A stretch of DNA of 35,920 nucleotides, taken from positions 1 through 35,920 of the IMG/VR virus record IMGVR_UViG_3300044998_000491, one strand, 5' to 3'. Made by a program: the position numbers and the translations under genes. Shown piece after piece: positions 15,186-30,968 of this stretch (positions within the stretch are counted from its first letter, which is position 1; each line of letters opens with the position of its first letter). The notes below the pieces were generated by a model. The model was given only the letters and a program-made list of their open reading frames with translations, made no database searches and was not told the DNA's origin. Source of the DNA: a virus.

Positions 15186-15602
15186 ATGATTGACACCACG
15201 GAAACGCTGCACAAATATCTATCCACAGTGGCGGGCATTACGGCGCAGGTGGGCGCGCGGCTGTACGGGCCGCCGGGGTTGCCGGCGGGCTACAACGGGC
15301 AGAAAGCGTTGGTATTGCTGCCCGACGGCGGCGAATCGCGTACCACGGTGCCGCTGGAACCCAACGATTTTCAGATTCGCTGCTACGGCCCGACGGCCGC
15401 CGACGGACAAGCGGTGTACCGCGCGCTGCACGCGGCGCTGAACGGCACGGGGCCGGTCAAGGTGGCTGTCACCGGCGGCAACGTGATTCTGGGCCGCGCC
15501 TGGAAAACGATGGGGCCGCGCTACATGGTGGAGCCGGAACTGGGCTGGCCTCTGTGGGTGACGGGGTGGCACATTATTTTCACTGACCGGACAGTGCCAT
15601 GA
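15186..15602 (+). CDS. Tail terminator protein
   Basis: A 138-residue protein with the alpha/beta layout of tail terminators. It has an N-terminal helix TTETLHKYLSTVAGITAQVG, the segment ARLYGPPGLPAGYNGQKALV, a strand FQIRCYGPTAADGQAVYRAL, and a C-terminal beta hairpin PLWVTGWHIIFTDR. Tail terminators cap the growing tail tube when it reaches tape-measure length. The order connector, head closure, gp10-like, terminator is standard. The tail tube gene should follow, but it comes only at 21175, after the sugar-modification island. The 3' end overlaps the first glycosyltransferase gene by 4 bases. Confidence 0.72.
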   Translation: MIDTTETLHKYLSTVAGITAQVGARLYGPPGLPAGYNGQKALVLLPDGGESRTTVPLEPNDFQIRCYGPTAADGQAVYRALHAALNGTGPVKVAVTGGNVILGRAWKTMGPRYMVEPELGWPLWVTGWHIIFTDRTVP

Positions 15603-16282
15603 ATGTTGTGGTGGCGATGATTACGTTTCGGCGTCCGCATTTGCTGCGGCGGACACTGGCATCGCTGGACAACACGGATTTGCCGTTTACGCTGTGCCTG
15701 ATGGATAACGGGTCGCAGGACGCGGAGACGCACAGCATTGTCAGCGGGCGCGGCGGGTTTACCTCGGCGTTTCCCCACAGTGTGGGCTTTGCGAAAAACA
15801 TGGTGATGACTGTGGCGCTGGCGCGCAAGCCCGATCTGGTGCTGCTTTCCGATGATGATTACGAGTACCGCGCGGGCTGGCTGGAAACGCTGACGGCGTT
15901 CTGGCGGGGTATCATGGGCGGCTATCAGTGGCGCGCGCCACACCATGATATTATCATTGCGGGAACGACGATTGAGCCGGTGTATCGCTGGAACGCGGTG
16001 ACGGGGAGCATTGAAGGGAACGGCGTGCGCGCGCTGATACGTGAGAGCGTGCCGGGCGGCGGGTGGTCGTTCCCCGCGCTGCACTGGCCGCTGATCTCGC
16101 CGTTCCCTGACCAGACCCAAAATGAGGACACGGCGCTTGTGCGGCTGCTGGCGCGGCGCGGCTGGCGCTTTGCGGCGCTGAATCTGGCGCAGCACATCGG
16201 CGCGGCGGAATCGCTGGCGGGCAACGAAACGCCGGACGATGCACCGCCGGTGGATTTGGCCGCGTGGGGGGTGGCGTCATAG
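15599..16282 (+). CDS. Family 2-like glycosyltransferase (GT-A fold)
   Basis: The ATG overlaps the tail terminator stop (ATGA). The start VVVAMITFRRPHLLRRTLAS is typical of GT2 enzymes, and DNGSQD follows about 40 residues on. LVLLSDDDYEY supplies the acidic cluster (D85-D87) that binds the metal and nucleotide sugar. The QTQNEDTALVRLLARRG segment (about 180) could hold the catalytic base. It has 227 residues and no membrane segment, so it is a soluble sugar transferase acting in the cytoplasm. The acceptor is unknown. The gene ends right at the insertion element. Its TAG (16280-16282) may lie at or within the element's end, so the last residues may not be original. Confidence 0.82.
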   Translation: MNVVVAMITFRRPHLLRRTLASLDNTDLPFTLCLMDNGSQDAETHSIVSGRGGFTSAFPHSVGFAKNMVMTVALARKPDLVLLSDDDYEYRAGWLETLTAFWRGIMGGYQWRAPHHDIIIAGTTIEPVYRWNAVTGSIEGNGVRALIRESVPGGGWSFPALHWPLISPFPDQTQNEDTALVRLLARRGWRFAALNLAQHIGAAESLAGNETPDDAPPVDLAAWGVAS

Positions 16283-16450
16283 ACCCCACGCCTAAAGGCG
16301 GGGGCTTGGCGCTGACTGTGCCAACGGATGTTGGCCAAACGTCGCACCATGAGGCGAAATGACCGTCGCCCACACGGATATATTCGTAGCGCCTACAACG
16401 TCGGCATGTTCTGAAAACCCGCAGGCGCAGCAAAGGAACTGAGATTGAGA
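16283..16450 (-). ncRNA. Probable omega RNA (TnpB guide RNA)
   Basis: In studied IS200/IS605 elements the guide RNA comes from the 3' end of tnpB and the right end, with its guide segment read from the DNA just outside the element. Here that would be - strand RNA covering the last ~150 bases of tnpB and the hairpin at 16284-16304. The guide would be copied from the 3' end of the GT2 gene (below 16283). The limits are inferred from the family, not seen as such. Confidence 0.4.
16284..16304 (-). repeat. IS right-end (RE) hairpin overlapping the tnpB stop
   Basis: CCCC, a bulged A, CGCC, loop TAAA, GGCG, GGGG. The tnpB stop codon (TAG, 16294-16292) lies in the loop and stem. The same hairpin, in the same orientation, recurs at the left end (17482-17502). 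Confidence 0.75.
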
Positions 16451-17413
16451 CCGACGATTCGCACGCTCGATATGACCACAGGCAAGGCAACGCTGGCTGG
16501 TGTATGCCGGTGCAACGACACGCACGGGCGTACCGGCCATCTTTGCCTTGTACTCAATCATGTCGCGCAACGAACCAAAATTCCAATTGCTGTGCCTGCC
16601 CCGTTGTTCACGCCGGATAGCCCTAGTCCGCTCGCGGATGCCCGCCAAATCTTCTATGGCAACCGCTCGCTTTGTGCGCGTGGCGTTGGCAACGATACGT
16701 TTGGCGATACAGTGGTTCGTGTCTTTCTGGAAACGTGCCTGCTTACCGGAGAGTCGTTTGAGTCTGCGCTTGGCGCTTTTCGTGCCACACTTTTGCAGGC
16801 GGCGGCGGGTCTTGTGCATCCGTTGGCGTGTCTTCTCAATCGCCTCACCACTGTAAAAGTTGGCGTCCGAATCCACCGCCAGATTGACGATGCCCATGTC
16901 CACACCCAGCGCCAACGTAGTCTCTTGCTCATCAGGGTCGGGAATCTCACAGGTGGCCAGCAGATAGAACGTGCCATTCTGGTACACCAAATCAGACTCG
17001 CCCTTCTGGTAACGCAGCAAGTCTCGTTGGCGCTCACCCGCCTGATAGGGAATGTTGAGGCGTCCGGACACCGACCAGATGGAAACGCGCTGCTTGTCGG
17101 TGTACCAGCGGAGGATGCGATTATCGTAGGCAATCGCGCCGTGCTTGCGGAAGGAGCGTTGCGTCTCTTTGTCCAGCCGGTAGGCATCGGCCACCTTAGC
17201 CACCAGACGCACGACCATCTGCGCCGTCAAATCGAAGCGGGCGCGAACGTCGGCATAGACCAGTTTTTGCAGACGGAACGTGCCAAACGTTCTACTTGCC
17301 CACGCCTGTTCACTGACAAAATTACAGGCAACATTCGCTTTCTCAAGCGTCTGCAAGAGGGCGGCGCGCTGTTCGTCTGTTGGTTGCAGTTTCACTTTCA
17401 CTGTCAGTTTCAT
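16292..17413 (-). CDS. tnpB: RNA-guided endonuclease TnpB, complete
   Basis: A 373-residue TnpB of normal length with all catalytic parts intact: RuvC acids D172 (LALGVDMGIVN), E254 (VAIEDLAGIRERTR) and D338 (SEHADVVGATNI). The zinc ribbon has CLAC at 309-312 and CCAC at 328-331. The arginine-rich helix (about 195-225) is typical. TnpB uses the omega RNA to cut DNA next to a short motif matching the element's insertion site, which favours re-copying of the element after its loss. The ATG is placed by the promoter, six bases downstream of the -10. The gene is antisense to the phage genes on both sides. The N-terminal half is roughly 50% identical by eye to the partial TnpB at 1-550. Confidence 0.96.
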   Translation of the reverse strand: MKLTVKVKLQPTDEQRAALLQTLEKANVACNFVSEQAWASRTFGTFRLQKLVYADVRARFDLTAQMVVRLVAKVADAYRLDKETQRSFRKHGAIAYDNRILRWYTDKQRVSIWSVSGRLNIPYQAGERQRDLLRYQKGESDLVYQNGTFYLLATCEIPDPDEQETTLALGVDMGIVNLAVDSDANFYSGEAIEKTRQRMHKTRRRLQKCGTKSAKRRLKRLSGKQARFQKDTNHCIAKRIVANATRTKRAVAIEDLAGIRERTRAIRREQRGRHSNWNFGSLRDMIEYKAKMAGTPVRVVAPAYTSQRCLACGHIERANRRSQSQFLCCACGFSEHADVVGATNISVWATVISPHGATFGQHPLAQSAPSPRL

Positions 17414-17419
17414 GCCTGT

Positions 17420-17448
17420 ATTCTAGCACAAGGGGGCTAATGTGTCAA
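17420..17448 (-). promoter_or_regulatory. tnpB promoter, near-consensus, probably leaderless
   Basis: On the - strand: TTGACA (17448-17443), 17 bases, TAGAAT (17425-17420) with TGC before it (extended -10). Six bases later comes the ATG (17413). The expected transcription start coincides with the start codon, as for the tnpB at the left edge. Confidence 0.75.
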
Positions 17449-17470
17449 ATATCAGTCATGGAGAAAGGAG

Positions 17471-17513
17471 CCGCACTTCCTCCCCACGCCTAAAGGCGGG
17501 GGCTTCCGTGCGG
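17471..17513 (-). repeat. IS left-end (LE) two-tier hairpin
   Basis: The outer stem CCGCAC (17471-17476) pairs with GTGCGG (17508-17513). Five-base loops follow on each side, then the inner hairpin 17482-17502. It matches the fold at 595-636 with changed but compensated stem pairs. Confidence 0.75.
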
Positions 17514-17521
17514 AATCTTTG

Positions 17522-18421
17522 GTGAACGTTCTCATTGCCCTCTGGCAATTTCTGACGCTGACGGGCGCGGAGATGTACGCGTACGAACTGGCGCGCGGCC
17601 TGGTCGCGCGCGGGCAGCGGGTGACGGTGACGGCGCCGCGGGTGGGCGGCGAAATTGCCGTGCGCGCGCAGGCGTTTGGCGTCAACGTGGTGCGGCGGGA
17701 CGATCTCACGGAGACGGCGTTTGACATTTTGCATCTGCAACAGCCAGAGCCGACGGCATGGGCGCTGCAACGCTTCCCCGAAGCGCCCGCAGTGATGACG
17801 GTGCATGGCCGCGTGGAGCCGTTTGAACGGCCCGTGCTGGACGAGAGAATCCGCCGTTACATCTGCGTGCTGCCAGAGATTCAGGACAGGGCGATCCACA
17901 AATACGGCGTGCCTGAGGAACAGACAACGGTTATCTACAACCCCATTGACCGTCGCCGGTTCAACACCGACGGCGCGGAAGCCGTTGACCCGCCGACAAT
18001 CCTGATGGCAGGGACACTGAACGACATCCGCGCGCCGATGTTCCGGCGGTTACAGTGGATTGCCGCGCGCGACCGGATGCAGTTGGTGGTCATTGGTGGA
18101 CAAATGGCGACATGGGACATTGAACACCATGTCAAACGGGCGCGGCTCGTGGCTGGGCTGTATCTGGGCCGCGCCGTCATCGAAGGGTGGTGTTGTGGGA
18201 AAACCGCGCTGGTGTTTCACTACGACGACACGGGGCTGGTGATAGACGACGAGCACCGCCTTGACCCGCCCGCCGACCTGACGATGTTCGACGCGGAACA
18301 TGTCACCGACCAGACGCTGGCGGTGTACAGGAAAGCCGCTGAGGGGGCCAGCGTCGGCGCTGACTTAGGCAAAGGTCGTAAGACACCGGAAAACGCTAAA
18401 AACCCGCCAGCGGCCTTGTAG
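17522..18421 (+). CDS. GT4-like glycosyltransferase (GT-B fold), divergent
   Basis: The N-terminal domain is a clear GT-B donor of the GT4 type: VNVLIALWQFLTLTGAEMYA, then YELARGLVARGQRVTVTAP. The linker holds YICVLPEIQDRAIHKYGVPE and VIYNPIDRRRF, typical of GT4 ('vi.NGvD...F'). The C-terminal nucleotide-sugar domain is short. It has a single Glu in AVIEGWCCGKTALVF (about residue 221) where GT4 enzymes usually have E-x7-E, so the first Glu is missing. I chose GTG 17522; TTG 17519 is also open. The start lies within ~10 bases of the insertion element and has no ribosome-binding sequence. The original one may have been in the 3' end of the GT2 gene and been separated by the insertion. Confidence 0.75.
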   Translation: MNVLIALWQFLTLTGAEMYAYELARGLVARGQRVTVTAPRVGGEIAVRAQAFGVNVVRRDDLTETAFDILHLQQPEPTAWALQRFPEAPAVMTVHGRVEPFERPVLDERIRRYICVLPEIQDRAIHKYGVPEEQTTVIYNPIDRRRFNTDGAEAVDPPTILMAGTLNDIRAPMFRRLQWIAARDRMQLVVIGGQMATWDIEHHVKRARLVAGLYLGRAVIEGWCCGKTALVFHYDDTGLVIDDEHRLDPPADLTMFDAEHVTDQTLAVYRKAAEGASVGADLGKGRKTPENAKNPPAAL

Positions 18422-18454
18422 GGCGTTCTGGAAGCCAACAACAGAAAGGATGGC

Positions 18455-19186
18455 ATGATGGAACAGCAGCAACGACAGTCTTACGATGGCTCTTGGTACG
18501 ACAAGGACTACTTTGACAACCCCCTGTCAGGCAAGGGCTATCCGATGCGCTACGCGCCGGACAGCGCGCCGTGGGCCGCGCTGGCGCGGTGGATTATCCA
18601 CAAGGTGAAGCCGCAGACGGTGGCCGACCTGGGCGCGGCCAAAGGGTATCTGCTGTACGAATTCGTCAAGCGGGGCATCTTTGGCATTGGCTGGGACTTT
18701 TCGCCGTATGCGGTGGAACACTGCCTGAAGCAGGTTATCGTGTACCAGCATGACATCCGCAAACCCGTCGAGTGGTCATTGAACAGACCGCCGGACGTGG
18801 CCTTTCTGCTGGACGTGCTGGAACACCAGACCGAAACCGACCTGGACGCGATTATGATCACGCTGGCGCTGCTGCGCCCGCGGCTCATCGTGGTTCATGC
18901 CGGGCTGGCGGGAACAGAGGACGAAAACGAGGCGTCGCACGTGACGCTGTGGACGCGCGCCGAATGGCTGGCGTATTTCCATGACAACGCGTTGCAGGCG
19001 GTGGACTGGCAGGACGAATACCGCGCGCACCTGAACGACCTCGGCGCGGTGGGGCAGACCTGGGCTGAACGCGCCTTTGTGCTGGAACGGCAACCGACGG
19101 TGTACCGCGATATGCCCGTGAGCCAGTGGATGCAGGATGAGAACCTGAAAGGCGGCGTGACGGTGTTGGAGCCGGTGCATGGCTGA
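18455..19186 (+). CDS. Class I SAM-dependent methyltransferase
   Basis: A 243-residue protein (ATG 18455, or the next codon 18458; GAAAGGATGG lies just upstream). It has the Rossmann-type SAM-binding motif TVADLGAAKGYLLYEFVKRG (motif I at about 56-65), the acidic end of beta 2 in GIGWDFSPYAVEH, and DVAFLLDVLEHQTE as motif IV. The form is that of methyltransferases that modify sugars or small molecules; it lacks the motifs of DNA methyltransferases. A C-terminal tail (about 200-243) includes YRDMPVSQWMQDENLKGG. Lying among glycosyltransferases, it may methylate the glycan they build, for instance as a cap, which is inference. Confidence 0.8.
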   Translation: MMEQQQRQSYDGSWYDKDYFDNPLSGKGYPMRYAPDSAPWAALARWIIHKVKPQTVADLGAAKGYLLYEFVKRGIFGIGWDFSPYAVEHCLKQVIVYQHDIRKPVEWSLNRPPDVAFLLDVLEHQTETDLDAIMITLALLRPRLIVVHAGLAGTEDENEASHVTLWTRAEWLAYFHDNALQAVDWQDEYRAHLNDLGAVGQTWAERAFVLERQPTVYRDMPVSQWMQDENLKGGVTVLEPVHG

Positions 19187-19433
19187 CGGCGCGGGGCCGC
19201 ACAAAGCCGATTTACCTGTGACCGTGCGTTTCCGCCTGAACCGGGCGGGCACGATGTTCCGCGTGGCCGTGTCGCCGTTACCGCCGCAAATCGTTGAGAT
19301 CACCTATGCCGAAATTGGCGGCCAGCGCGTGCCGCGGCCGTGGTGGGTGGCCGACATGGCGGCGCGCACCATCACCATTTATGAGCCGATGAAGATCATG
19401 GACGCGCCCACGATCCTGCCGACGCGCAACTGA
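19179..19433 (+). CDS. Hypothetical protein, 84 aa
   Basis: ATG 19179 overlaps the methyltransferase stop by 8 bases. The protein is small and mostly beta: LPVTVRFRLNRAGTMFRVAV, then PQIVEITYAEIGGQRVPRPW and ARTITIYEPMKIM. There is no signal peptide or membrane segment. I do not recognise it. It ends the first part of the island and is followed by the strong terminator at 19462. Confidence 0.55.
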   Translation: MADGAGPHKADLPVTVRFRLNRAGTMFRVAVSPLPPQIVEITYAEIGGQRVPRPWWVADMAARTITIYEPMKIMDAPTILPTRN

Positions 19434-19461
19434 ATCCACAGTAGGGAGAGACGACAATGGG

Positions 19462-19492
19462 ACGGCGTTCCCGCGCGGGAACGCCGTTTTTT
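19462..19492 (+). terminator. Strong rho-independent terminator
   Basis: A perfect 26-base GC-rich palindrome (19462-19487, two arms of 13) is followed directly by six T residues (19487-19492). It is the best terminator in the window and splits the late region in the middle of the sugar-modification island. Transcription must restart, or read through under antitermination, for the tail genes. Confidence 0.85.
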
Positions 19493-19504
19493 ATGTCAAA
19501 TGTA

Positions 19505-19571
19505 GTGTATGGTTGGTGTGTAGTGTATAGGAAAAGGATTGACGTATACGTGAAAAAAGGGGTGTATACGT
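19505..19571. promoter_or_regulatory. Phased operator/iteron-like repeats
   Basis: The motif GTGTAT (or ACGTAT) recurs at 19505, 19523, 19542 and 19562, steps of 18, 19 and 20 bp, about two helical turns each. The third unit is a perfect palindrome, ACGTATACGT (19542-19551), and the fourth is 9/10 identical (GTGTATACGT, 19562-19571). They overlap the promoter spacer and -10 box, which suits a repressor or activator array. Confidence 0.55.
19539..19568 (+). promoter_or_regulatory. Candidate sigma70-type promoter
   Basis: TTGACG (19539-19544), an 18-base spacer, TGTATA (19563-19568), just after the terminator. It would transcribe the holin-like gene, GT4 and the tail genes, leaving a leader of about 250 bases. 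The -10 coincides with an operator-like unit. Confidence 0.5.
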
Positions 19572-19829
19572 AGGGGATATGTGAAATCGGCTGCATAACC
19601 CTACAAACCCTACATTTGACGCTCAGGGGCGCGGTGGGGCCGCGCAAACCCACCATGACGCGCCCGCGCCGCCTCTGTGGGGGTGCAAGGCGCGGGCATG
19701 GCGCTATGTAGTGGCAGAAACACTGCCGCGAATCATGATATACAGGATACGAGGCGGCTTTTTTGCGGGCTGCGATATCGAGTAATCCGATGTGATGCAA
19801 TTTCGGGCGATGACAGAAAGGGGCGGGTC
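19572..19829 (+). other. Long untranslated leader with stem-loops, no gene seen
   Basis: Together with the upstream signals this makes a ~400-base stretch (19434-19829) without a convincing gene. I see hairpins at 19629-19645 (GCGCGG/CCGCGC) and 19713-19727 (GGCAG/CTGCC). GCCGC (19725-19729) and GCGGC (19754-19758) are separated by a long loop and followed by TTTTTT (19759-19764), a possible weak terminator or attenuator. Short frames inside it lack good ribosome-binding sites. Confidence 0.4.
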
Positions 19830-20138
19830 ATGTCATTCATCGAAGCGCTGGCGTGGGCCAGCACGTCTGAGGGGATTAACGCGATCCTCGGCGTGCTGCT
19901 GTCGTGGGTGGTGGAGTTGTTTCCGGAGTGGGCGGATATTTCGCCGTTCCACAAACGGCTGTATCTGCTGGTGGCGTCGCTGGCGATTCCGCTGGGCGCG
20001 GCGGGGCTGGCGGTGGCGACGGGGTACAGGGAACACAGCATTGAATTGACGTATTGGCCCGCTGTTGAGGCGGGTGCAGCCGCGTTCATCGCGGGGCAAA
20101 TCCGGCACGGGCTGACGCTGAGCCGCAGGGGCAAATGA
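19830..20138 (+). CDS. Holin-like membrane protein
   Basis: ATG 19830 follows GAAAGGGGCGGG. The 102-residue protein has a first hydrophobic segment (about 15-30, INAILGVLLSWVVELFP), the charged loop SPFHKRLY, a second span (about 45-65, LLVASLAIPLGAAGLAVATG), and a third weaker one near 80-92 (VEAGAAAFIAGQ). The pattern 'YFP.w..lp..kKRl...l' followed by two spans is common in holin-like proteins of siphophages. Holins time lysis by opening the inner membrane. It stands apart from any endolysin in this window. Its stop overlaps the GT4 start. Confidence 0.6.
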   Translation: MSFIEALAWASTSEGINAILGVLLSWVVELFPEWADISPFHKRLYLLVASLAIPLGAAGLAVATGYREHSIELTYWPAVEAGAAAFIAGQIRHGLTLSRRGK

Positions 20139-21178
20139 CGATGCGCGCACCGTACCGCGTGGCGTGGATTCCGTTGCATGACGATGACGCGTCGGGCTAT
20201 GGCCGGGTGGGGCAATATCTGTTCCATGCGCTGAAGAACGCGGGCGCGCAGATGTGCCAGCGGCGGGACTGGGATTGGGATGCGCGGGTGGCGGTGGGCG
20301 GCCCGCGGTCGTGGCTGGTGGGTCGCGGCGATGACGTGAAGGATGACCTCGTTTTTCACACGATGTTCGAGGCCCGTCCGTTGCCCGCGGATTGGGCGCC
20401 GGTATTGAATCGCTGTGCCGCCGTCTGGACACCGGCAGAATGGAATGTCGGCGTGTTGCGGGAATCGGGCGTGACTGCGCCGATCTTCGTCAGCGGGTAC
20501 GGCGTTTCGGACAAAGAATTCACCTATGTGGAGCGAAACAGGGCCGCTGATGCCCCCTATATTTTCATGTGGGCTGGGACAAGTTGGGGCGAGACGATAG
20601 ACGGCACGATGTTGGGAGATCGCAAGGGAGGCGATCTGGTCGTCGAGGCGTTTCGCAAACTGAACCTGCCGGACGCGCGGTTGATCCTGAAGGCGGGCGG
20701 GCGATCGGCCATCACCGAGATTCGGGGTGATGACCGGATTGCGCTGCTGAGCGGACGGATGCCACTGCCTGAGTATGCAGCGCTCATGGCGACGGCGGAC
20801 TGTTTCGTTTACCCCTCGCGCGGGGAAGGGTTTGGCCTGCAACCGCTGGAAGCGATGGCGACGGGGTTGCCGTGCATCGTGACGCAGTACAGCGGCATGG
20901 CCGAGTACGCGCGGGAAGGCGTGACGCTGCCCCTTGCGCCTGTGGGCGAGGAGCCATCGCAAGCCTTCGAGTTTGTGTATGGCTACCGGTGCTGGTGGGC
21001 GCAGATCAGCGTTGACGACATCTGTGACCGGATGCAGTGGTGCTATGAAAATCGGGAAGCCGCCGCGGAGATTGGCAAACGCGCGGCAGAATACGTTGCG
21101 CAGGAATGGACGTGGGATAGCGCAGGGGAACGGGCCTTGCAACTGCTGCAAGGCCATGTTGAGAGGGTGCGAACATGA
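20135..21178 (+). CDS. GT4-family glycosyltransferase (GT-B fold)
   Basis: A 347-residue GT4 enzyme with the classic C-terminal E-x7-E motif in YPSRGEGFGLQPLEAMATGL (E231 and E239). It also has AGTSWGETIDGT and KGGDLVVEAFRKLNLPDARL for the nucleotide-sugar side. The N-terminal acceptor domain begins YRVAWIPLHDDDASGYGRVG. It is soluble. The ATG overlaps the holin-like gene and its stop overlaps the tail tube ATG (21175-21178), so it is translated in line with tail genes. The sugar and acceptor are unknown: a virion protein, the host surface, or modified DNA are all possible, with the virion favoured by operon position. Confidence 0.88.
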   Translation: MTMRAPYRVAWIPLHDDDASGYGRVGQYLFHALKNAGAQMCQRRDWDWDARVAVGGPRSWLVGRGDDVKDDLVFHTMFEARPLPADWAPVLNRCAAVWTPAEWNVGVLRESGVTAPIFVSGYGVSDKEFTYVERNRAADAPYIFMWAGTSWGETIDGTMLGDRKGGDLVVEAFRKLNLPDARLILKAGGRSAITEIRGDDRIALLSGRMPLPEYAALMATADCFVYPSRGEGFGLQPLEAMATGLPCIVTQYSGMAEYAREGVTLPLAPVGEEPSQAFEFVYGYRCWWAQISVDDICDRMQWCYENREAAAEIGKRAAEYVAQEWTWDSAGERALQLLQGHVERVRT

Positions 21179-21696
21179 CAATCGCTGCAACTACCGCCGC
21201 GCGTATGTGGCTGGACGGCGGCACGTTTACGATTGACGGTGTGGATGTGGGCGCGTCGCCCCAGCAGACGGGAACCTTTGCCGTCGAGCAGGAAATCTAC
21301 AAACCGCGGCTGGCCGGCGCGCGGGGGTTCATTGCGGGCATCGCGAAGATCATCACGGAGCACGCGACGCTGCAAATGAACCTGGTGGAACTGAACGTCG
21401 GCAACCTGCAAAAGGTGCTGCCGATGGTGACGAGCACCAGCGACGCCAACAGCGAGTACACCGTTTCGGAGTCGTTTGGCTACATCGGCGCGTCGGAACA
21501 CCTGACCGTCATCTGGGACGGTGAGACGATGGACAACGACGATGTGCTGATCAAGTTGTACAACGCGCTGCCGGACGGCGGGCTGTCGGTGACGCTTTCG
21601 GACACGGCGGAATCGCAGATGGCGATCACGTACCGCAGCCATTACACGATGGCTGCGCCGAAAACCCGCAACTGGCAGGTGTTCGTCGCGAAGTAG
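21175..21696 (+). CDS. Major tail tube protein
   Basis: A 173-residue, beta-rich protein with the style of siphophage tail tube subunits: ARMWLDGGTFTIDGVDVGAS, then GTFAVEQEIYKPRLAGARG, a middle segment HATLQMNLVELNVGNLQKVL, and C-terminal SHYTMAAPKTRNWQVF. Tube proteins stack as hexameric rings around the tape measure. It is followed by the chaperone pair and the tape measure, the standard order. Its start overlaps the GT4 stop. Confidence 0.82.
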   Translation: MTIAATTAARMWLDGGTFTIDGVDVGASPQQTGTFAVEQEIYKPRLAGARGFIAGIAKIITEHATLQMNLVELNVGNLQKVLPMVTSTSDANSEYTVSESFGYIGASEHLTVIWDGETMDNDDVLIKLYNALPDGGLSVTLSDTAESQMAITYRSHYTMAAPKTRNWQVFVAK

Positions 21697-21729
21697 CCTT
21701 GCTTCTGACCTGAAAACTCTGGGAGGCCA

Positions 21730-22425
21730 GTGGAAACGATGGCAGTCAACGAATCTCCTGAACAGGAATTGAACATCCTTGACCTCGATGCGCTGATTCT
21801 GGAGCCGCCGCGCATTCTGCTGCCGCACCGCGTGGTGGTGGAACTGCGCGACCTGAGCCGCGATGAACTGCTGGCGTTTTTGCGGCAGGTGGATGAGATC
21901 GAGCGCGACAACCCCCAGCGCATTGCGGTACGCTATGCCGACCTGCTGGCGACGATTGCCGTTGACCCCACCGACGCGCTGCCCAAACTGGACGACATGA
22001 CCTTTGTGCATGTGATTCTGGCGATGCGCTGGCTGCGCGACCCGCAGACGGCGGTGTTTGACGCGTCGGAGCGCAGGGCTATCGGCACGGTGAAACTGGA
22101 CGGCAAGACGTATGACGTGCTGCCCATCACCGTCGGCACGTCGCGGCTGCTGGCCCAGCGCGCGGCGGTGATGGAAGGCGGCGACGCGGGCCGCCTGTCG
22201 CCGGTGGATGAGCACGAATACAACCTGACGTTTATGGCGCACCTGATAGACGGTATTTCGCTGGCGCGGTTGCAGCAGATGACGACGTTTCAGCGCGCGC
22301 CGCTGGCGCGGTATCTGTCCGAGCAGTTGCAGCGGCATTTTGAGGAACTGACGGCGGGGACAGGCGGCGGCGCAAACCCTACGCTGCCGACCGCGCGGCC
22401 TTCGCGTGGGCGTCGGCCAAGGTAG
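21730..22425 (+). CDS. Tail assembly chaperone, upstream product (gpG-like)
   Basis: A 231-residue protein with the usual position between tail tube and tape measure. Two starts are open: GTG 21730 and ATG 21739. GGGAGG at 21721-21726 is rather close to the first and far from the second. The N-terminus is acidic (ESPEQELNILDLDALILEPP), and a helical domain follows (LRDLSRDELLAFLRQVDEIE). Such proteins coat the tape measure before the tube assembles around it. The last ~15 residues (from about 217) are made only when no frameshift occurs; a -1 shift at AAACCCT gives the longer product. Confidence 0.8.
   Translation: METMAVNESPEQELNILDLDALILEPPRILLPHRVVVELRDLSRDELLAFLRQVDEIERDNPQRIAVRYADLLATIAVDPTDALPKLDDMTFVHVILAMRWLRDPQTAVFDASERRAIGTVKLDGKTYDVLPITVGTSRLLAQRAAVMEGGDAGRLSPVDEHEYNLTFMAHLIDGISLARLQQMTTFQRAPLARYLSEQLQRHFEELTAGTGGGANPTLPTARPSRGRRPR
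22374..22417 (+). other. -1 programmed ribosomal frameshift signal
   Basis: A_AAC_CCT (22374-22380) fits the slippery rule X_XXY_YYZ in the frame of the upstream gene. After 5 bases a stem-loop follows: GCCGAC+CGCG (22386-22395) with CGCG and, after a 5-base bulge, GTCGGC (22403-22417). A slip by one base joins residue 217 of the upstream protein to the frame that opens with YAADRAAFAW and ends at 22847, giving 372 residues. Confidence 0.85.
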
Positions 22426-22847
22426 CGCGGTTCTATGGCTGGACGGACGCGGCGATGGGGTGCATGTCGTGGCGGCGGCTGATGGTGTATCAGCGGATGA
22501 TCGGCAGGCTGGAAGCGGAGGAACAGTTGCAATGGCTGCCCATACTGAAAACCGAAGGGAAGGGGTTGCAACCGTTGATCCGCGACCTGGAAGCCCGCGC
22601 GCGGGTGGGGGAATCCACAGGAACGGCGCCGCGCCGACGGCGGCGGAAAGAGGGGCAGGCGGCCGAACCGGCGACGTTCGTCCTCGATTACCAGATGAAC
22701 ACGCAGGGGGTTCACGACCCGCACAAGGAGCCGGGGATTGTGACGGGGAGCAAGGCGTTGAAAGCGCAGATCAAGGCGCAGTGGGTGGAAGAAGCGAAGC
22801 AGTTGCGGGCCGAGCGCATGGCGCAGAAAAGTGGTTCTTCGACGTGA
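22380..22847 (+). CDS. Tail assembly chaperone, frameshift extension (gpT-like)
   Basis: This frame is read only after the -1 shift and adds 155 residues to the upstream chaperone. The first part, AFAWASAKVARFYGWTDAAM, leads to MSWRRLMVYQRMIGRLEAEE, the common form of the second chaperone domain, which is thought to recruit tube subunits. The rest has a basic patch (PRRRRRKEGQ) and a helical end. An ATG at 22455 is in frame, but coding-like sequence extends well upstream of it. It has no good ribosome-binding site, so separate initiation is unlikely. The stop overlaps the next start (GTGA). Confidence 0.8.
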   Translation, partial: YAADRAAFAWASAKVARFYGWTDAAMGCMSWRRLMVYQRMIGRLEAEEQLQWLPILKTEGKGLQPLIRDLEARARVGESTGTAPRRRRRKEGQAAEPATFVLDYQMNTQGVHDPHKEPGIVTGSKALKAQIKAQWVEEAKQLRAERMAQKSGSST

Positions 22848-23095: not shown

Positions 23096-26000
23096 ATGAT
23101 CAACATCGGCGAACTGGCCGCAAAACTGACACTGGATACGACCGAATACTACCGCGGGCTTGACAACGTAGAGCGTTCGTCGGCGTCGCTGGGCGAGCGG
23201 ATGACGCGCGGGCTGGCGACGGTGGGCACGGCGTTGACGGCGGGCGTGACGCTGCCGCTGGTGGGGATTGGGACAACGGCGGCGAAGGTGGCGGCGGATT
23301 TCGAGTCGCAGATGAATGTGCTGACGGTGGCGGCGCGGTCGTCGGGCACGGGGCTGGAGGATTTGCGGCAGGCGGCGCTGGCGGTGGGCGCGGACACGGA
23401 GTTGATTGGCATCAGCGCGGCGGAGGCTGCCGATGCGATGACCAACTTCTACAAAGCGGGCCTCGACACCACCGACATTTTCGGTGACCTCGAAGGCTAT
23501 CTCGAAGGCAACATTTCGCTGACGGGCGCGCTGCGCGCCGCTGTGGATTTGGCGGCAGCCAGCGAACTCGACTTGGCGCAGGCGTCGGATGTGGTGGCGA
23601 TTGCCATGGCGACGTTTGGCCTGAGCGCGGAGGATGCGGGGCGGATTGCGGACAGTTTTGTCGGGTCGGCGGATGCGTCGCTGGCGTCGGTGGGGGATTT
23701 GGCGCAGGCGATGATCAACTTTGGGCCGACGGCGGCCAGTTTTGGCTTTACGCTGGAACAGGCCAACACGGCGCTGGCGCTGCTGTCGACGCGGGGCATC
23801 AAGGGCGCGGAGGCGGGCACGGCGCTGAAGTCCATGCTGACCAACATGATGAGCAACACCAACGCTGTGAAAGATGCGTGGCGCGACCTGGGCGTTTCGC
23901 TGTATGACAGCGAAGGGGCGATGCGCGCTCTGCCCGATGTGATTGGCGATCTGGAAACGGCCATGGCGGGCATGACGGAGCAGCAGCGCAACCAGTACAT
24001 CCAGACGCTGGCGGGCACGTATGGCATGAAGGCGCTGCAAACGCTGTTGGCGGAGGGCAAGAGCGGCTGGGACGACATGACGGCGTCCATCGAAGACGCG
24101 GCGACGGCGCAGGAGGTGGCAAACGCGCGGACGCAGGGTTTCCACAGCGCGATGGAGCAGTTGCAGGGCGTGATTGAAACGCTGTTGATTCAGGTGGGGA
24201 CGCCGCTGATTGAGAACTTTTTGACGCCCGCCGCGCGGTGGCTGGGCGAGATGGCGGGGTCGCTGAGCGAGCGGCTGACTCCCGCGCTGGCGGATTTTCT
24301 CGTCAAGGCGGGGCTGGTGGTGGCGGGCGCGGGGCCGCTGGCGCTGCTGCTGGCGCAGTTGCCGAAGTTGATCGGGTTCCTGACGGGGCCGGTGGGGTTG
24401 ATTGCCGGCGTTATTGGGCTGGGCATTGCCTTTGAACTGCAAACGGGCATCATCAGTTCTTTTGCCAAATACATCGGCGCGGTGCTGGAAGATGGCGACA
24501 CGCTCAACGACTGGCTGACGCATTTGCCGAAGGCGATGCAGCCCGCGGCGAAAGCCTTTGGCGAACTGGTGGATGATCTGGCCGCGCTGGTGAAATACAT
24601 CGGCGCGGTGCTGGCAGATGGTGATTATCTCAATGACTGGCTGACGCATCTGCCGGAAGCGATCCGGGGCGTTGTGGTGGAGATGGGCAAGATGATTGCG
24701 CTGCTGGCCGAGGGCGACACCAAGGGCGCATTCGGGCTGTTCCAGACGTGGATCGCCGGTGGCATTCGCAGCATTGATGAGAATAAGGGCCAGTGGGTAG
24801 CCGACATTGGCAAGAGGATTGGCGATCTGCTGGGCGCGGCGGCGGCGTGGGTGAGCGCGAACATCGGGCCGCGGGCCGCCGAACTGTGGGCGCAGGTGCG
24901 GACGTGGGTTGAAGACGCCTGGGCTGAAATGGAAAGGAACAAGGATAAGTGGGCGGCGCAGATTGGGCAGGGACTAAAAGACGCTCTGGACGGCGCGGCG
25001 GCGTGGCTGGCGCAGAACGTCGGTGACAAGGTGGAACTGCCCGCGGCTTTCAAGGGATTGATTGACGAGTGGAATGAGATAGCCACAGATTTGCAGACGG
25101 TGTGGGATACCGTCACCGCCTATCTGACCCCGACGATTGATCAGTTGCACGAATCTTTCGGCAATATGCTGGATGGCCTGAGCAAACTGGGGCCGTCATG
25201 GCAGCGCTTCTGGGACACCATCAAGCCGGTCATTGATGGGCTGGCAAAACTTTTGGGCGGGGCGGTTATCCTTGCCGTCAAACTGTTGGGCGAGACGGTG
25301 GCCGCTGTTTTCGATTCGATTCCTGGCACAATTGAGAACGTGCTGGATACAGCAACGACTTTCCTCGAAACCGTTGAAACCACATGGAATGAAACAGTTA
25401 AGCTGGTCAAGGCTGTCGTTGACGGTGATTGGAACAAGGCTTGGAAGTCGGCGGAAAACATCGCGGCGGCGCTGGTTACTTTTGTTGGAACGTCACTGAC
25501 TGGCCTGATTGATACAGTAAAGACATGGGGAGGCAATCTGCTGCGGGGAGTACGCAGCGCGCTGGAAGACTTGCCGGGCGATGCAGGCAAATTCTTTACG
25601 GAACTGTTTGAGAAAGCGGATGAGGAACTGGGCAAGGTCAAGGCATTTCTCGATGACACATTGCCCAAAGCCGCCGCGTTCTTGCAGGAAAAGTTTGACG
25701 AGTACTGGCCCAAGATTCAGGAGGCTGTCACTGATGTCACGGATACCCTGTGGCCTGTACTGGACGGGCTGAAAGAATTCCTTTTCACTGACTTGCCTGA
25801 CGCGGCAAGTGAACTGAAAACCAAGTTTGAAGAATATTGGCCCAAAGTGCAGGAAGCCGTTAGTACGGCATGGGACACGATCAAGCCGTGGCTGGAAGCG
25901 CTGGAAGATGTCATTGTTGCAATCAAGGATAGCGTTGTCACCTTCGCTTCAACATGGGATGAAAAATGGAACGCGGCCAAGCAGAAGATCACCGACATTG

Positions 26001-29000
26001 GCGATGCGCTAAAGACACCCATTGAAGCCGTTAAGGGTGCGATTGACGATGTGATCAGCGCCGTCAATTCACTGGTGGACTTGATTGCCAATCCGTTTAC
26101 GATCACCATTCGGGTACCAACCCCCACATGGCCGACGCCGCCCCAATGGTTGCAGAATCTGTGGAATGGCATCACAGGGGTTCCATCAGGGCCGCCTTCC
26201 ACACCGCCCAATGTACCGCCGACGAATCCCGACGGATCGCGCCGCTTTGAGTCGGTGATAGGGGGCAGTGGTCTGATTGCGGGCGGCAAGGCGCTGCTCA
26301 CCGATTTCACCGGCATTGTTGACCAGTTGGCGCGGGTGGCGCGGGCGATGATTGACGTGGCGCGCGACCTGTTCGCGGAGGTGGGCGACGAGGAACAGCG
26401 CAAGGTCATTGACAAGCAGATGGAGTTGTTCAACCAGTTGGCGGCCTCCACGCGGGGGCTGACCGACGCCTACGCCGCGCTGGCGCAGGAATTGCCAGAG
26501 GTGGACACAGCGCGCATCACGAGTGTCATGCGCGTGGCACGCGAACTGATGGGCGAACTCCTGATTGCCGCACGCGAACTGTTTGGCGATGCCAGCGCGG
26601 AAGACCTCGACAAGCGGCTCCCTGCTGTGGAAGCCTTCGCGTCGCTGGGCAGTAAACTGGGTTCCTTCGTGTCCGGCGTGGTGGGCGCGTGGGGGACGCT
26701 GGGCGGTGAGTTGCCGCCTGTGCCTGACGATTTGCGGCAGCGGATTGGCGCGCTGCTGGGCGTGGTGGCGGTGGTGGCCGACGAAATCGAAGGCATGACG
26801 GCGCGCGATTGGGCCAACGTGGCGGCGCTGGCTGCGCAGATGCAGCCGGTGATGGATATTGTGTCGGGCGCGGCGCGGGCCTTGCAGGACATGGCCGCGT
26901 GGAAGCCGACGCCGGGCATGGGCCAGATTTCAACCGAAATCCTGAAATGGGCCGTGTCGGTGGTGGAATTCCTGCGCGGCCACGCGGCCCAGCACATGGG
27001 CGACGAAGCGCCGCAGATGGATGTCTTTGGTGACGCGGTGGGCGCGGCCATGTCTGTCCTGTCGGACACGGCGCAGGCGTTGCAGACGCTGGCGCAGTGG
27101 AAACCGACGGCGGGCATGGGTGAGATCAGTACGAATCTGGCGAAATTCGCCGTCGCGGTGGTGGAACTGATGGCGGGCCACGCGCAGAAGGTGTTGGGCG
27201 ATGAGGTGCCCAACATCACGGCCTTTGGCGAGGCGGCGGGCGCGGCCATGGCGGTCTTGTCCGACACGGCGCAGGCGCTGATGGTTCTGAAACAGTGGAC
27301 ACCCACAGCGGGGATGGGTGCGATCAGCACCAACGTCGCGAAATTCGCGGTGGCGGTGGTGGAACTGATCGTGTCGCTGGCGAAACGGTTCGATCAGGAA
27401 GGGTTGGACGCGGCGAAGCGGATGGCCGAGGCGCAGACGCCCATCATGCAGGCGATTCAGTCCACGGTGCTGATGATGCAGGCGCTGAAAGAGTGGGAAG
27501 GCGCGCCGAATCTGGGCCGGATCAGCACCAACGTCGCCTTGTTCGCGGCCGCGGTGATTGATCTGATGGTGTCGCTGGCGACGCGGTTCCAGCAGGAAGG
27601 GTTGGACGCGGCCAAAGCCATGTCCGAGGCGGCGGGGCCGGTGATGGATGCCCTGTCGGGCACGCTGTCCCTGATGGCCGGGCTGAAGGAGTGGCAGGGC
27701 GCGGAAGGGCTGGGCGTCAAATCGTCCAACGTGATCAAATTCGCGGTGGCGATTGTGGATTTCGTCATCGCGCTGGCGCAGAAATTCGACGCGGAAGGCA
27801 TCGCGGCGGCGCAGCGGTTCGCAACGGCCGCGGGGCCGGTGATGAGCGCGCTGGAATCTGCCCTCAACTTTATGAACGGGCTGAAGGAGTGGGAAGGCGC
27901 GCCGGGGCTGGGCGTCAAGTCCACCAACATCATCAAATTCGCGGTGGCGGTGGTTGACCTGGTGCGCGCTCTGGCGGCGCAATTCAGCGAAGAAGGGCTG
28001 GCGGCGGCGGCGGAACTGGGCGACACCATCGGCCGCGTGACGGCGGGCCTGAAAACGGCGCTGGATTTGCTGAACGGGCTGCGCGATTACACCGAAGTCC
28101 CCGAAACCAACGTGCTGCAATTCGAGCAGGACTTGCTCTTTATCATGCAGCGGCTGCGGGTGTGGCTCTCCGGCCCGCTGGCGACGCTGGCCGATGAAAC
28201 GGTGACGGCGGCGGCGCAGGCGATTGGCGTCATTGCGGGCGGGCTGCGCGGCGCGGTGGATTTGCTGAACGGGCTGCGCGATTACACCGCAGTCCCCGAA
28301 ACCAACGTGCTGCAATTCGAGCAGGACTTGACTTTCCTGTTGCAGCGGATGATCTTCTGGCTGACGGGGCCGCTGGCGATCTACGCCGATGAAGTGGTGG
28401 AAAAGGCGGGGCGCACCATCGGCGTTGTGCTGGGCGGGCTGGGCGATGCGCTGGGCCTGCTGAAGGGGCTGAAGGAATACACGCGGCCCACGATGAGCGT
28501 CATCGAAGACTTTGTGGCCGACGTGACCAAGACCTTCAGGATGTTTGCGGACTGGGTGCTTTTGGAATTCGCGGACGGCGTGCCGGACGTGATTGCCAAG
28601 TTTGGCGCGGCGGCGTCGTCGCTGTTCAGCGGCCTCACCAGCGCGCTGACGCTACTGAAGGGATTGAAGGATTACACACAGGTTCCGCAGCAGGCGATGG
28701 ACGATTTCATGGCCGACGTGCAGCGGATTGTGGATGCCTTTGTCCGCTGGGTGGGGGGCCGCTTTGGTGACAAGGTGGATGAAGGTGTGGTCGCATGGGG
28801 CGATGCAATGTCGTCGCTGTTTGGCGGGCTGTCCAGCGCGCTGAAACTGCTGCTGGAACTGCCCAAGTACGTGCCGCCCGCGCAGAGCGCGATGGATCGC
28901 TTTGTAGATGACGTGCTGCACATGATGGTTTATTTCATCTCCATCATGCCGCCGCTGGACGACGAAACGGCGAAGGCGGTGACGGCCTTTGGCAGCACCA

Positions 29001-30121
29001 TCGGCGCGTTGTTTGACGGCCTTGCCAGCGCGCTGGAAGTGCTGCAAGGGCTGGTCTGGTATGTGCGGCCCAGCCAGACGCGGATGGACAACTTTGCCAG
29101 CGACGTGAAGGCGCTGTTCGAGAAATTTGCCGCCTATGCCAAGACCGATCTGGTGACATCCAGCACCAAGGCGGTGACGGAGTTTGGCAACGCGCTGGGC
29201 GCGCTTTCCGGCGGGTTGGGCGCGGCGCTGTCGCTGTTCGAGAAACTGATGAGCGCCAACTTCGATGCGTGGCTGGCGAAACCCGCGGGGCCGGGGCAGA
29301 GCGCGTCGCCGTTTGAGAAAAAGTTGCAGCAATTCAACGAAGCCCTGCACACCGCGATTGTATCGTGGAATAACTGGATCATCAACACGCTGGACAAAGA
29401 GGCGATTGCGCTGGTGGGCAGTTTCAGCGACACGCTGAAGCGGATCAGCGAAGGCTTTGGCGCAGCGTTGCAACTGTTGATTGACCTGAACGAAGAAGGG
29501 TTGCCCAGCATGGAGCGGTTGCAGCAATACCTCGATCTGGTGCTGATGCTGTTCCGCGCTTTTCTGGAAGGGCAGGGCGACCAAGCCGGGCTGGACGATG
29601 TGCCGGGGCTGGTGAAGCGGGCCGGTGAGCAGGTCATCGGCGCGCTGGGCGACATTGGTGCTGGTTTGCAGCCGCAACAGGAGAAGTGGCGGCTGTGGGG
29701 CAGCAACATGATGAAAGATGGGCTGGTGGCGGGCATCGAACAGGGGTTGTGGGCATCGGCCACACGGCTGAAGGGCGCGGGCACGGGCGCGGCGCAGCAA
29801 CTGTTGGGCGGCTTCAAAACGACGCTGGGCATTGCGTCGCCGTCGCGGGCCTTCATGGAAGCGGCGGCGGAGATTCCCACAGGGATTGCGCTGGCGCTGG
29901 ACGCGGGGCGCAGCAAGGTAGGCAGCGCGCTCGATGGCCTGCTGGCGTCGGCAGGGATGGACAGCCCCAGCGTGGAGGTGAACGGACGCAAGGAAACGCA
30001 CGTCTACTTCCATCTGGACGGCAACGGGCTGGCGGGGTTGTCGCCGTCTGACCGGCGCGCGATTCTGGACGATCTGGCGAAGGCCATGCGGATGCAAGGC
30101 ATCAGCGCTGCGCGCGCGTGA
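23096..30121 (+). CDS. Tape measure protein, 2341 aa
   Basis: The tape measure sets tail length and is ejected ahead of the DNA. Residues 1 to about 450 match the TP901-1-type domain: LAAKLTLDTTEYYRGLDNVE, then AADFESQMNVLTVAARSSG and GIKGAEAGTALKSMLTNMMS. Hydrophobic segments follow (about 400-450). KYIGAVL-x-DGD-x-LNDWLTHLP occurs twice (about 458 and 499). The central part (about 650-1040) has lower GC and repeated EYWPKIQEAV-type motifs. From about residue 1266 to 1990 there is a regular 66/65-residue repeat array. The C-terminus has the family motif LGIASPSRAFMEAAAEIP. At ~0.15 nm per residue the tail should be near 350 nm. The ribosome-binding sequence before ATG 23096 is weak. Confidence 0.95.
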   Translation: MINIGELAAKLTLDTTEYYRGLDNVERSSASLGERMTRGLATVGTALTAGVTLPLVGIGTTAAKVAADFESQMNVLTVAARSSGTGLEDLRQAALAVGADTELIGISAAEAADAMTNFYKAGLDTTDIFGDLEGYLEGNISLTGALRAAVDLAAASELDLAQASDVVAIAMATFGLSAEDAGRIADSFVGSADASLASVGDLAQAMINFGPTAASFGFTLEQANTALALLSTRGIKGAEAGTALKSMLTNMMSNTNAVKDAWRDLGVSLYDSEGAMRALPDVIGDLETAMAGMTEQQRNQYIQTLAGTYGMKALQTLLAEGKSGWDDMTASIEDAATAQEVANARTQGFHSAMEQLQGVIETLLIQVGTPLIENFLTPAARWLGEMAGSLSERLTPALADFLVKAGLVVAGAGPLALLLAQLPKLIGFLTGPVGLIAGVIGLGIAFELQTGIISSFAKYIGAVLEDGDTLNDWLTHLPKAMQPAAKAFGELVDDLAALVKYIGAVLADGDYLNDWLTHLPEAIRGVVVEMGKMIALLAEGDTKGAFGLFQTWIAGGIRSIDENKGQWVADIGKRIGDLLGAAAAWVSANIGPRAAELWAQVRTWVEDAWAEMERNKDKWAAQIGQGLKDALDGAAAWLAQNVGDKVELPAAFKGLIDEWNEIATDLQTVWDTVTAYLTPTIDQLHESFGNMLDGLSKLGPSWQRFWDTIKPVIDGLAKLLGGAVILAVKLLGETVAAVFDSIPGTIENVLDTATTFLETVETTWNETVKLVKAVVDGDWNKAWKSAENIAAALVTFVGTSLTGLIDTVKTWGGNLLRGVRSALEDLPGDAGKFFTELFEKADEELGKVKAFLDDTLPKAAAFLQEKFDEYWPKIQEAVTDVTDTLWPVLDGLKEFLFTDLPDAASELKTKFEEYWPKVQEAVSTAWDTIKPWLEALEDVIVAIKDSVVTFASTWDEKWNAAKQKITDIGDALKTPIEAVKGAIDDVISAVNSLVDLIANPFTITIRVPTPTWPTPPQWLQNLWNGITGVPSGPPSTPPNVPPTNPDGSRRFESVIGGSGLIAGGKALLTDFTGIVDQLARVARAMIDVARDLFAEVGDEEQRKVIDKQMELFNQLAASTRGLTDAYAALAQELPEVDTARITSVMRVARELMGELLIAARELFGDASAEDLDKRLPAVEAFASLGSKLGSFVSGVVGAWGTLGGELPPVPDDLRQRIGALLGVVAVVADEIEGMTARDWANVAALAAQMQPVMDIVSGAARALQDMAAWKPTPGMGQISTEILKWAVSVVEFLRGHAAQHMGDEAPQMDVFGDAVGAAMSVLSDTAQALQTLAQWKPTAGMGEISTNLAKFAVAVVELMAGHAQKVLGDEVPNITAFGEAAGAAMAVLSDTAQALMVLKQWTPTAGMGAISTNVAKFAVAVVELIVSLAKRFDQEGLDAAKRMAEAQTPIMQAIQSTVLMMQALKEWEGAPNLGRISTNVALFAAAVIDLMVSLATRFQQEGLDAAKAMSEAAGPVMDALSGTLSLMAGLKEWQGAEGLGVKSSNVIKFAVAIVDFVIALAQKFDAEGIAAAQRFATAAGPVMSALESALNFMNGLKEWEGAPGLGVKSTNIIKFAVAVVDLVRALAAQFSEEGLAAAAELGDTIGRVTAGLKTALDLLNGLRDYTEVPETNVLQFEQDLLFIMQRLRVWLSGPLATLADETVTAAAQAIGVIAGGLRGAVDLLNGLRDYTAVPETNVLQFEQDLTFLLQRMIFWLTGPLAIYADEVVEKAGRTIGVVLGGLGDALGLLKGLKEYTRPTMSVIEDFVADVTKTFRMFADWVLLEFADGVPDVIAKFGAAASSLFSGLTSALTLLKGLKDYTQVPQQAMDDFMADVQRIVDAFVRWVGGRFGDKVDEGVVAWGDAMSSLFGGLSSALKLLLELPKYVPPAQSAMDRFVDDVLHMMVYFISIMPPLDDETAKAVTAFGSTIGALFDGLASALEVLQGLVWYVRPSQTRMDNFASDVKALFEKFAAYAKTDLVTSSTKAVTEFGNALGALSGGLGAALSLFEKLMSANFDAWLAKPAGPGQSASPFEKKLQQFNEALHTAIVSWNNWIINTLDKEAIALVGSFSDTLKRISEGFGAALQLLIDLNEEGLPSMERLQQYLDLVLMLFRAFLEGQGDQAGLDDVPGLVKRAGEQVIGALGDIGAGLQPQQEKWRLWGSNMMKDGLVAGIEQGLWASATRLKGAGTGAAQQLLGGFKTTLGIASPSRAFMEAAAEIPTGIALALDAGRSKVGSALDGLLASAGMDSPSVEVNGRKETHVYFHLDGNGLAGLSPSDRRAILDDLAKAMRMQGISAARA
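26891..29250 (+). repeat. Tape-measure repeat array, 198/195-bp units
   Basis: The codons for an 'L-x-x-W' or 'L-x-x-Y' core recur at 26891, 27089, 27287, 27485, 27683, 27881, 28079, 28274, 28469, 28664, 28859, 29051 and about 29246. The first six steps are exactly 198 bp (66 residues), the next four 195 bp and the next one 192 bp. Each unit ends one helix and begins another, with a conserved aromatic residue. Confidence 0.85.
28062..28330 (+). repeat. Near-identical 74-bp direct repeat inside the tape measure
   Basis: The bases 28062-28135 and 28257-28330 differ at one position (GAA/GCA in DYTEVPETN versus DYTAVPETN). They are two successive units of the array, offset by 195 bp. Such DNA identity is far above that of other units and points to recent duplication or gene conversion. 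Confidence 0.8.
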
Positions 30122-30874: not shown

Positions 30875-30903
30875 ATTGTAACATAAATACGGAAATCAGG
30901 CAA
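30875..30903 (-). promoter_or_regulatory. Promoter of the HNH endonuclease gene
   Basis: On the - strand: TTGCCT (30903-30898), exactly 17 bases, TACAAT (30880-30875) preceded by TGT (extended -10). It lies about 70 bases upstream of the HNH start codon, so the gene can be expressed independently of, and against, the late operon. Confidence 0.7.
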
Positions 30904-30968
30904 GGAAAATACAGGGAAGATATGCGCCTGCATATTACTTGCATGATTTCCGCGCAAGGGCTTAACCA

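Follow-up and report, generated by a model that had tools for sequence, protein, structure and literature searches.

A candidate transcription boundary in the late region of an uncultured tailed phage: a terminator, an AT-rich block of repeats and a structured stretch

Introduction

Among the described systems with which the locus analysed here can be compared, the closest in layout is the boundary of a moron, or accessory cassette, in phage late operons. In the cited description, morons are extra genes among the structural genes, followed by an oligo-T hairpin and by non-coding space able to hold a promoter (PMC2147016). The ESAS elements of Cluster K mycobacteriophages are presented as imperfect 17-bp inverted repeats of unknown function upstream of genes; their arms lie mostly 4-13 bp apart, and they occur in many copies per genome beside the 13-bp SAS (PMC3203893). 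The stoperators of Cluster A are described as short, repeated phage-repressor sites able to act on transcription—asymmetric, 13 bp long, spread genome-wide and mostly in one orientation (PMC6550527). Finally, the account of Cluster O mycobacteriophages reports 17-bp dyad repeats, with >30 copies per genome, as well as AT-rich, promoter-bearing intergenic regions (PMC4351075).

The DNA analysed here, hereafter the window, is a whole IMG/VR virus record, linear and 35,920 bases long. As far as the cited descriptions go, a gap in its late region shares with the moron boundary the extra genes, the hairpin with its T tract and the non-coding space; unlike in a moron, the terminator divides the accessory block from the unit that follows, and the block comprises several genes, its own promoter not being established. 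The gap has an imperfect 17-bp inverted repeat like that of ESAS, but a single one with arms 92 bp apart; it has repeated short sites like stoperators, but within one block and in both orientations; and it has dyad-symmetric repeats in an AT-rich intergenic region as in Cluster O, but in one cluster. Measured against these accounts, the arrangement thus fails to show the dispersed copies typical of ESAS, stoperators and Cluster O dyads, its motif being confined, across the window, to the block. We read the gap (19434-19829) as a transcription boundary in the late region, composed of a terminator, an operator/promoter region and a structured leader, with a probability of about 0.52. Most likely, this is an ordinary kind of place where transcription ends and restarts under control.

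Results and discussion

Gene content and the boundary between two gene units

The phage is uncultured and tailed, and the window encodes a DNA methyltransferase, a ribbon-helix-helix (RHH) protein, the large terminase, portal, major capsid protein, head-tail connectors, major tail protein and a tape measure protein of 2341 aa. The top terminase matches among bacterial genomes were, among the matches listed, on Chloroflexi/Chloroflexota-labelled contigs (L087, 49%; L088, 47%), and the TnpB protein of the window was matched in 101 of 400 Chloroflexota-phylum genomes (top identity 57%). Judging from such sequence matches, the host is likely a member of the Chloroflexota.

On the plus strand, an accessory block (15599-19433) contains a GT2-like gene (15599-16282; Pfam PF00535, 8.1e-8), a gene for a GT4 N-domain protein (17519-18421; PF13439, 1.5e-18), a methyltransferase-like gene (18455-19186; PF13489, 4.6e-5, below the family cut-off) and, as its last ORF, one of 84 aa (19179-19433); the block is interrupted by a complete, minus-strand TnpB gene (16292-17413) assigned through PHROG transposase families. 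The next unit, likewise on the plus strand, starts with a gene for a 102-aa predicted membrane protein (19830-20138), preceded by an AAAGGGG ribosome-binding site and called transmembrane by eye. Family searches then identified a GT4 glycosyltransferase (20135-21178), the major tail protein (21175-21696) and the tape measure (23096-30121), so that the GT4 and tail genes that the first-pass annotation had placed downstream were indeed found there. Altogether, three glycosyltransferase-type genes and one methyltransferase-like gene lie among the tail genes between 15599 and 21178.

The gap extends over 396 bp from the stop codon of the 84-aa ORF to the ATG at 19830, and separates the accessory glycosyltransferase/methyltransferase/TnpB block from the membrane-protein, GT4 and tail unit. 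Codon-position GC revealed no coding bias across it, and it is the longest stretch lacking an assigned gene in our hand-picked gene list. The automatic gene call gives a gap of only 243 bp, ending at 19676, because it takes a GTG start at 19677; the longer frame of the membrane-protein gene that results (19677-20138) had no family match. In that automatic call, the gap showed the largest GC drop (-0.08) among the 7 gaps listed. A 38-aa ORF (19457-19573), in frame with the GTGTAT units discussed below and preceded by AGGGAGAG, was rejected as a gene: it crosses the terminator and has a low GC3 (0.51, where most of the listed ORFs have 0.58-0.85).

A strong terminator downstream of the accessory block

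The gap opens with a plus-strand intrinsic terminator, T1 (19462-19493), located 28 bp past the stop codon at 19433. It consists of a perfect 26-nt palindrome (19462-19474/19475-19487; 13+13, 100% complementary) and a run of six T residues (19487-19492), and folds into a stem of 11-14 bp with a tetraloop at -24.0 kcal/mol. When both strands of the window were scanned for perfect stems (≥7 bp) followed by a T tract, T1 was the sole site. The same scan in loci of terminase kin yielded 69 sites in 1.88 Mb, i.e., 1.31 per 36 kb, with a background of 0.27 per 36 kb for stems of at least 11 bp. The near-perfect terminator proposed at this place was therefore borne out, and by sequence criteria T1 is convincing as the intrinsic terminator of the upstream genes. 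The automatic terminator scan did not call it, probably because the stem extends through G-T pairs into the T run. A control region at a transcription boundary is thus the best reading; since T1 would end the upstream unit, the position that had been described as mid-operon is more aptly called a position separating two operons.

We also considered T1 as a terminator of host type. A hairpin identical to it at 25 of 26 positions occurs in one of the 400 Chloroflexota-phylum genomes (L144), in an intergenic position and without a T tract, and the exact pattern of stem and T run was found in none of the 400; the idea was rejected on these grounds.

An AT-rich block with direct and inverted repeats

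Directly beyond T1 lies an AT-rich block of 126 bp (19495-19620), whose ends form an inverted repeat matching at 15 of 17 positions (19495-19511/19604-19620). The contrast in composition that had been remarked upon was confirmed, with a GC content of 0.41 against 0.62, and no part of the window is more AT-rich than the block, which ties in this respect with the HNH region at 30.1-30.9 kb. The latter holds a minus-strand HNH endonuclease gene (30134-30805), AT-rich and placed between the tape measure and the tail gene that comes after it, and a 63-bp imperfect inverted palindrome (30890-30952) adjoins that gene; the region looks like a homing-type insertion.

Within the block, the 11-bp inverted repeat reported at 19495-19505/19610-19620 is exact and is the part that extends to the 15/17 match. 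A direct pair of TGTAGTGTAT occupies 19501-19530 on the plus strand, with copies at 19501 and 19519 (an 18 bp step), and an inverted pair of TGTAGGGTT lies on the minus strand at 19594-19614, with copies at 19594 and 19603, 9 bp apart. Between them, the inner pair ACGTATACGT / GTGTATACGT (19542-19571) shows an inverted pairing of 8-9 bp and falls within a weak promoter match. The first-pass annotation had described this block as a phased array of four GTGTAT units, one of them a full palindrome and another a 9/10 match. The palindrome is there (ACGTATACGT at 19542-19551), but GTGTATACGT differs from it at 2 of 10 positions and is thus an 8/10 match; likewise, GTGTAT is exact at 19505, 19523 and 19562, while the unit at 19542 reads ACGTAT and agrees at only 4 of 6 positions. 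The steps between these units are 18, 19 and 20 bp.

The statistics favour a different description of the repeats. Allowing one mismatch, GTGTAT occurs 5 times in the block against 2.77 expected (P 0.13), i.e., it is not enriched, and its role as the operator unit is left unsupported. In dinucleotide shuffles of the block, by comparison, the direct 10-mer repeat reached P 0.014 and the inverted 11-mer repeat P 0.0008, and the two together appeared in 0 of 5000 shuffles. The repeats thus exceed chance, as would be looked for in an operator array; the better-supported units are TGTAGKGTWT, with two direct copies on the left and two inverted copies on the right, rather than a single phased array. 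The four-copy 8-mer motif was matched by 10 of 400 shuffles. Taken alone, inverted repeats of 11 bp within 150 bp are frequent at the scale of the window (mean of 3.0 per shuffled window).

As a harder control, we used real AT dips (n=125) from 118 terminase-kin loci. The same combination of repeats was present in 4 of these 125 dips, which makes the block uncommon but not singular. Such figures also bear on the notion that only T1 matters and that the remainder is untranslated spacer, with repeats produced by chance and AT-rich drift. Direct repeats of at least 10 bp (13/125) and inverted repeats of at least 11 bp (12/125) are found in real dips, GTGTAT is not enriched and the promoter match is weak, all of which agrees with this notion; against it, just 2 of the 125 dips have an 11-bp inverted repeat whose arms are separated by 60 bp or more, both repeats together were never reproduced by shuffling and the top-ranking folding tile described below overlaps the block. 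On balance, we regard the spacer explanation as unlikely. Elsewhere in terminase-kin loci, AT-rich islands carry exact inverted repeats of 32 bases (L128, 7099-7224) and 22 bases (L072, 85-210), and one terminase-kin phage (L073, 1180-1810) has a long non-coding stretch with at least 5 partly palindromic repeats of the TACCTACAGTAAC type.

Alternatively, the 126-bp block itself could be a small non-autonomous mobile element, or what is left of one, with terminal inverted repeats of 11 perfect base pairs (15/17 overall). Its inverted ends do bound the GC dip, and the phage carries other mobile genes, namely TnpB, a cut-off second TnpB frame and the HNH endonuclease. However, there is no target-site duplication (the flanks read TTTAT and GCTCA), neither viral_contigs nor genome_contigs contained the inverted-repeat pair, no second copy exists in the window and, by eye, the ends are unlike the hairpin ends of the TnpB element, making a mobile origin very unlikely. 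Regarding those elements, the complete TnpB gene is flanked by a 24-nt identical direct repeat (16284-16307 and 17482-17505) containing a short palindrome (CCCCGCCTTTAGGCGTGGGG), and the second, diverged TnpB-like frame (2 to about 553, minus strand) is truncated by the left end of the window. The consensus of attC sites is GTTRRRY/RYYYAAC; the attC-like ends that we noticed (GTCAAAT/ATTTGAC) were rejected, having the wrong orientation and one mismatch each.

With two repeats per arm, the arms inverted relative to each other across a symmetric GTATAC core, the AT-rich block also resembles a recombination or replication site, be it an iteron origin or an attP-like array with sites in the arms and the core. 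Against this stand the location amid tail genes, after a terminator, and the lack of any recognised integrase or replication protein in the parts of the window scanned, although the record is a linear fragment and such genes could therefore lie outside it. We hold a site of this kind to be highly improbable; the relic of an iteron set, which had been offered as an option, likewise gains no support, with no replication gene recognised among the proteins scanned.

The promoter match and the candidate regulator

The proposed TTGACG-18-TGTATA promoter does exist at 19539-19568, but its score ranks only 205 in the window, so that its -35/-10 match is no better than background by a sigma-70-type measure; the automatic scan reported no promoter in the block. 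The matches ahead of the two TnpB frames are near consensus, ranking 1 (complete TnpB) and 6 (left-end frame). That the block's own match is weak while such promoters are found in the same window weakens the boundary reading. If a promoter at all, the block would be a weak or activator-dependent one.

As for the regulator, the RHH protein (3365-3709) had been named as a candidate binder. Its RHH fold is supported by a match to PF01402 (2.7e-7), and a second RHH-like half is visible by eye. Outside the block, sites within 2 mismatches of TGTAGKGTWTGG number 6 against about 4.1 expected, which is near chance. A 10/12 match, TGTTGTTTTTGG, lies at 3343-3354, 10 bp upstream of the RHH start; it belongs to a set of matches whose count outside the block is near chance. 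Little in the sequence thus supports the binding of this protein to the block.

A structured stretch and a second terminator-like hairpin

In the folding analysis, the block itself gave z-scores of -2.9 as RNA and -3.5 as DNA, with 9 of 285 tiles of 126 nt being at least as extreme (the block reaching -2.75 in that tile run), and the minus-strand 148-nt tile at 19493 had the lowest z-score among 484 tiles (-5.9, a value based on just 12 shuffles). Downstream, a GC-rich plus-strand stretch (19621-19768), a candidate untranslated leader or small RNA, has a minimum free energy (MFE) of -72.6 kcal/mol and a z-score of -3.1, with 0 of 200 shuffles as stable. At its end lies a terminator-like hairpin on the plus strand, T2 (19714-19768), made of an A-tract, an imperfect stem and six T residues; it folds at -20.4 kcal/mol (19713-19768) and was not picked up by the perfect-stem scan.

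This structure could mean that the block promoter drives a small RNA gene, i.e., an untranslated RNA of ~190 nt (about 19575-19768) ending at T2, with the tail unit being read by other means. The stretch does lie between two terminator-like sites, 19570-19768 is likewise more stable than each of its 200 shuffles (z -3.3), the 126-nt tile at 19657 has the second-lowest z-score of 285 and the whole gap is devoid of coding bias. At the same time, no Rfam family reached the gathering score, no homologue with covariation is available and the stretch ranks only 11th of 484 tiles by MFE, meaning that GC-rich coding stretches fold comparably. BLAST matches to 19626-19683 in 4 of the 400 Chloroflexota-phylum genomes were short, two of them (G150 and G077) falling in likely coding frames and the others (G265 and G271) overlapping weak frames only; we take them to be probably chance. 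A dedicated small RNA gene is, on this evidence, distinctly unlikely. We would give still less credence to an extended version, in which the structured RNA (about 19575-19768) would have a multi-site operator to itself, lie between two terminators ahead of the glycosyltransferase-tail unit, act as a switch for glycosyltransferase and tail dosage—either as a small RNA or as an attenuator—and represent a family outside Rfam.

Relatives of the locus

Searching for the motif in related genomes, as the first-pass annotation had suggested, produced no sequence relative of the block in any search. No stretch of viral_contigs contained the direct pair, blastn of 19440-19640 against phages and plasmids gave chance-level matches only and phage blastn of 18400-22500 gave nothing. 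Five of the 400 Chloroflexota-phylum genomes gave a match, none inside 19495-19620. Overall, no relative of the block was seen in viral contigs, genome contigs, phages, plasmids or the 400 phylum genomes.

At the protein level, the terminase alignment comprised at least 80 plus at least 54 loci (29-55% identity), the GT4 scan led to L141 and the tape measure scan to 8 records; the AT-rich block is absent from the terminase, GT4 and tape-measure relatives compared. When the major tail protein, the methyltransferase and the capsid were each scanned for singly, no relatives emerged; the major tail protein had 0 matches in the 400 Chloroflexota-phylum genomes and phrog_885, among 22 records, was matched only in that of L141. 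This relative shares four connector genes, the GT4 and the major tail protein with the window at 28-39% identity. The genes that separate its last connector from its major tail protein include a small membrane protein-like ORF, a GT4, a 419-aa ORF and a minus-strand ORF, where the window has GT2, TnpB, GT4, methyltransferase, membrane protein and GT4. The genes at this place differ, which indicates that the locus is variable and that the gap lies within it.

A second relative, L158 (tape measure segment, 64%; major capsid protein, 39%), has a 145-bp, AT-leaning intergenic gap in which GC drops and which contains nested inverted repeats unrelated in sequence, located just before the last genes ahead of its tape measure. 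Among five relatives, L158 alone has such a nested-repeat dip; none was seen in the gaps read in L141, L162, L155 and L159, and a gap of the latter (4290-4687), considered for comparison, was set aside since it looks coding by eye.

The tape measure gene offers two further observations. L155-L160 are 62-67% identical to the window (23096-24600) over the initial few hundred residues of the protein, while other genes hardly match; we read this N-terminal stretch as a tail domain exchanged as a unit. Moreover, the gene contains diverged tandem repeats of about 195 bp each (26862-28482).

A boundary where transcription may end and restart

Several lines favour reading the gap as a transcription boundary: T1 is the window's sole perfect-stem terminator and follows a stop codon by 28 bp, the combination of repeats escaped all 5000 shuffles, T2 and the structured leader are present, the gap sits in a variable accessory locus and L158 has a comparable gap. 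Additionally, AT-rich promoter-bearing intergenic regions have precedent in the description of Cluster O (PMC4351075). Besides the weak promoter match, the reading is weakened by the missing relatives of the block, by the 4 of 125 kin dips that are alike and by the fact that L158 stands alone among five, with an unrelated sequence.

The sequence and rarity of T1, the repeats, the base composition, the folding and the gene order are observations at the sequence level. Under the boundary reading, T1 would end the transcript of the accessory glycosyltransferase/methyltransferase block, and the AT-rich block would hold the promoter of the next unit, i.e., membrane protein, GT4, major tail protein and tape measure. 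The block may carry sites of a regulator, probably symmetric and multi-subunit, in the form of the TGTAGKGTWT repeats, two of which point inward from each side of the GTATAC core. A transcript starting near 19575 would continue into the structured leader and pass the weaker, terminator-like T2, a possible attenuator. The position of the promoter, the regulator and the attenuation are elements that we infer. Such a boundary may have been created where accessory genes come and go.

To our knowledge, little is known about late gene control in this phage group. The gap would mark a division of the late genes into units, beside an exchangeable glycosyltransferase/methyltransferase block. If the AT-rich block is an operator, it would provide a handle on late gene control in this phage group; otherwise, the arrangement would be routine.
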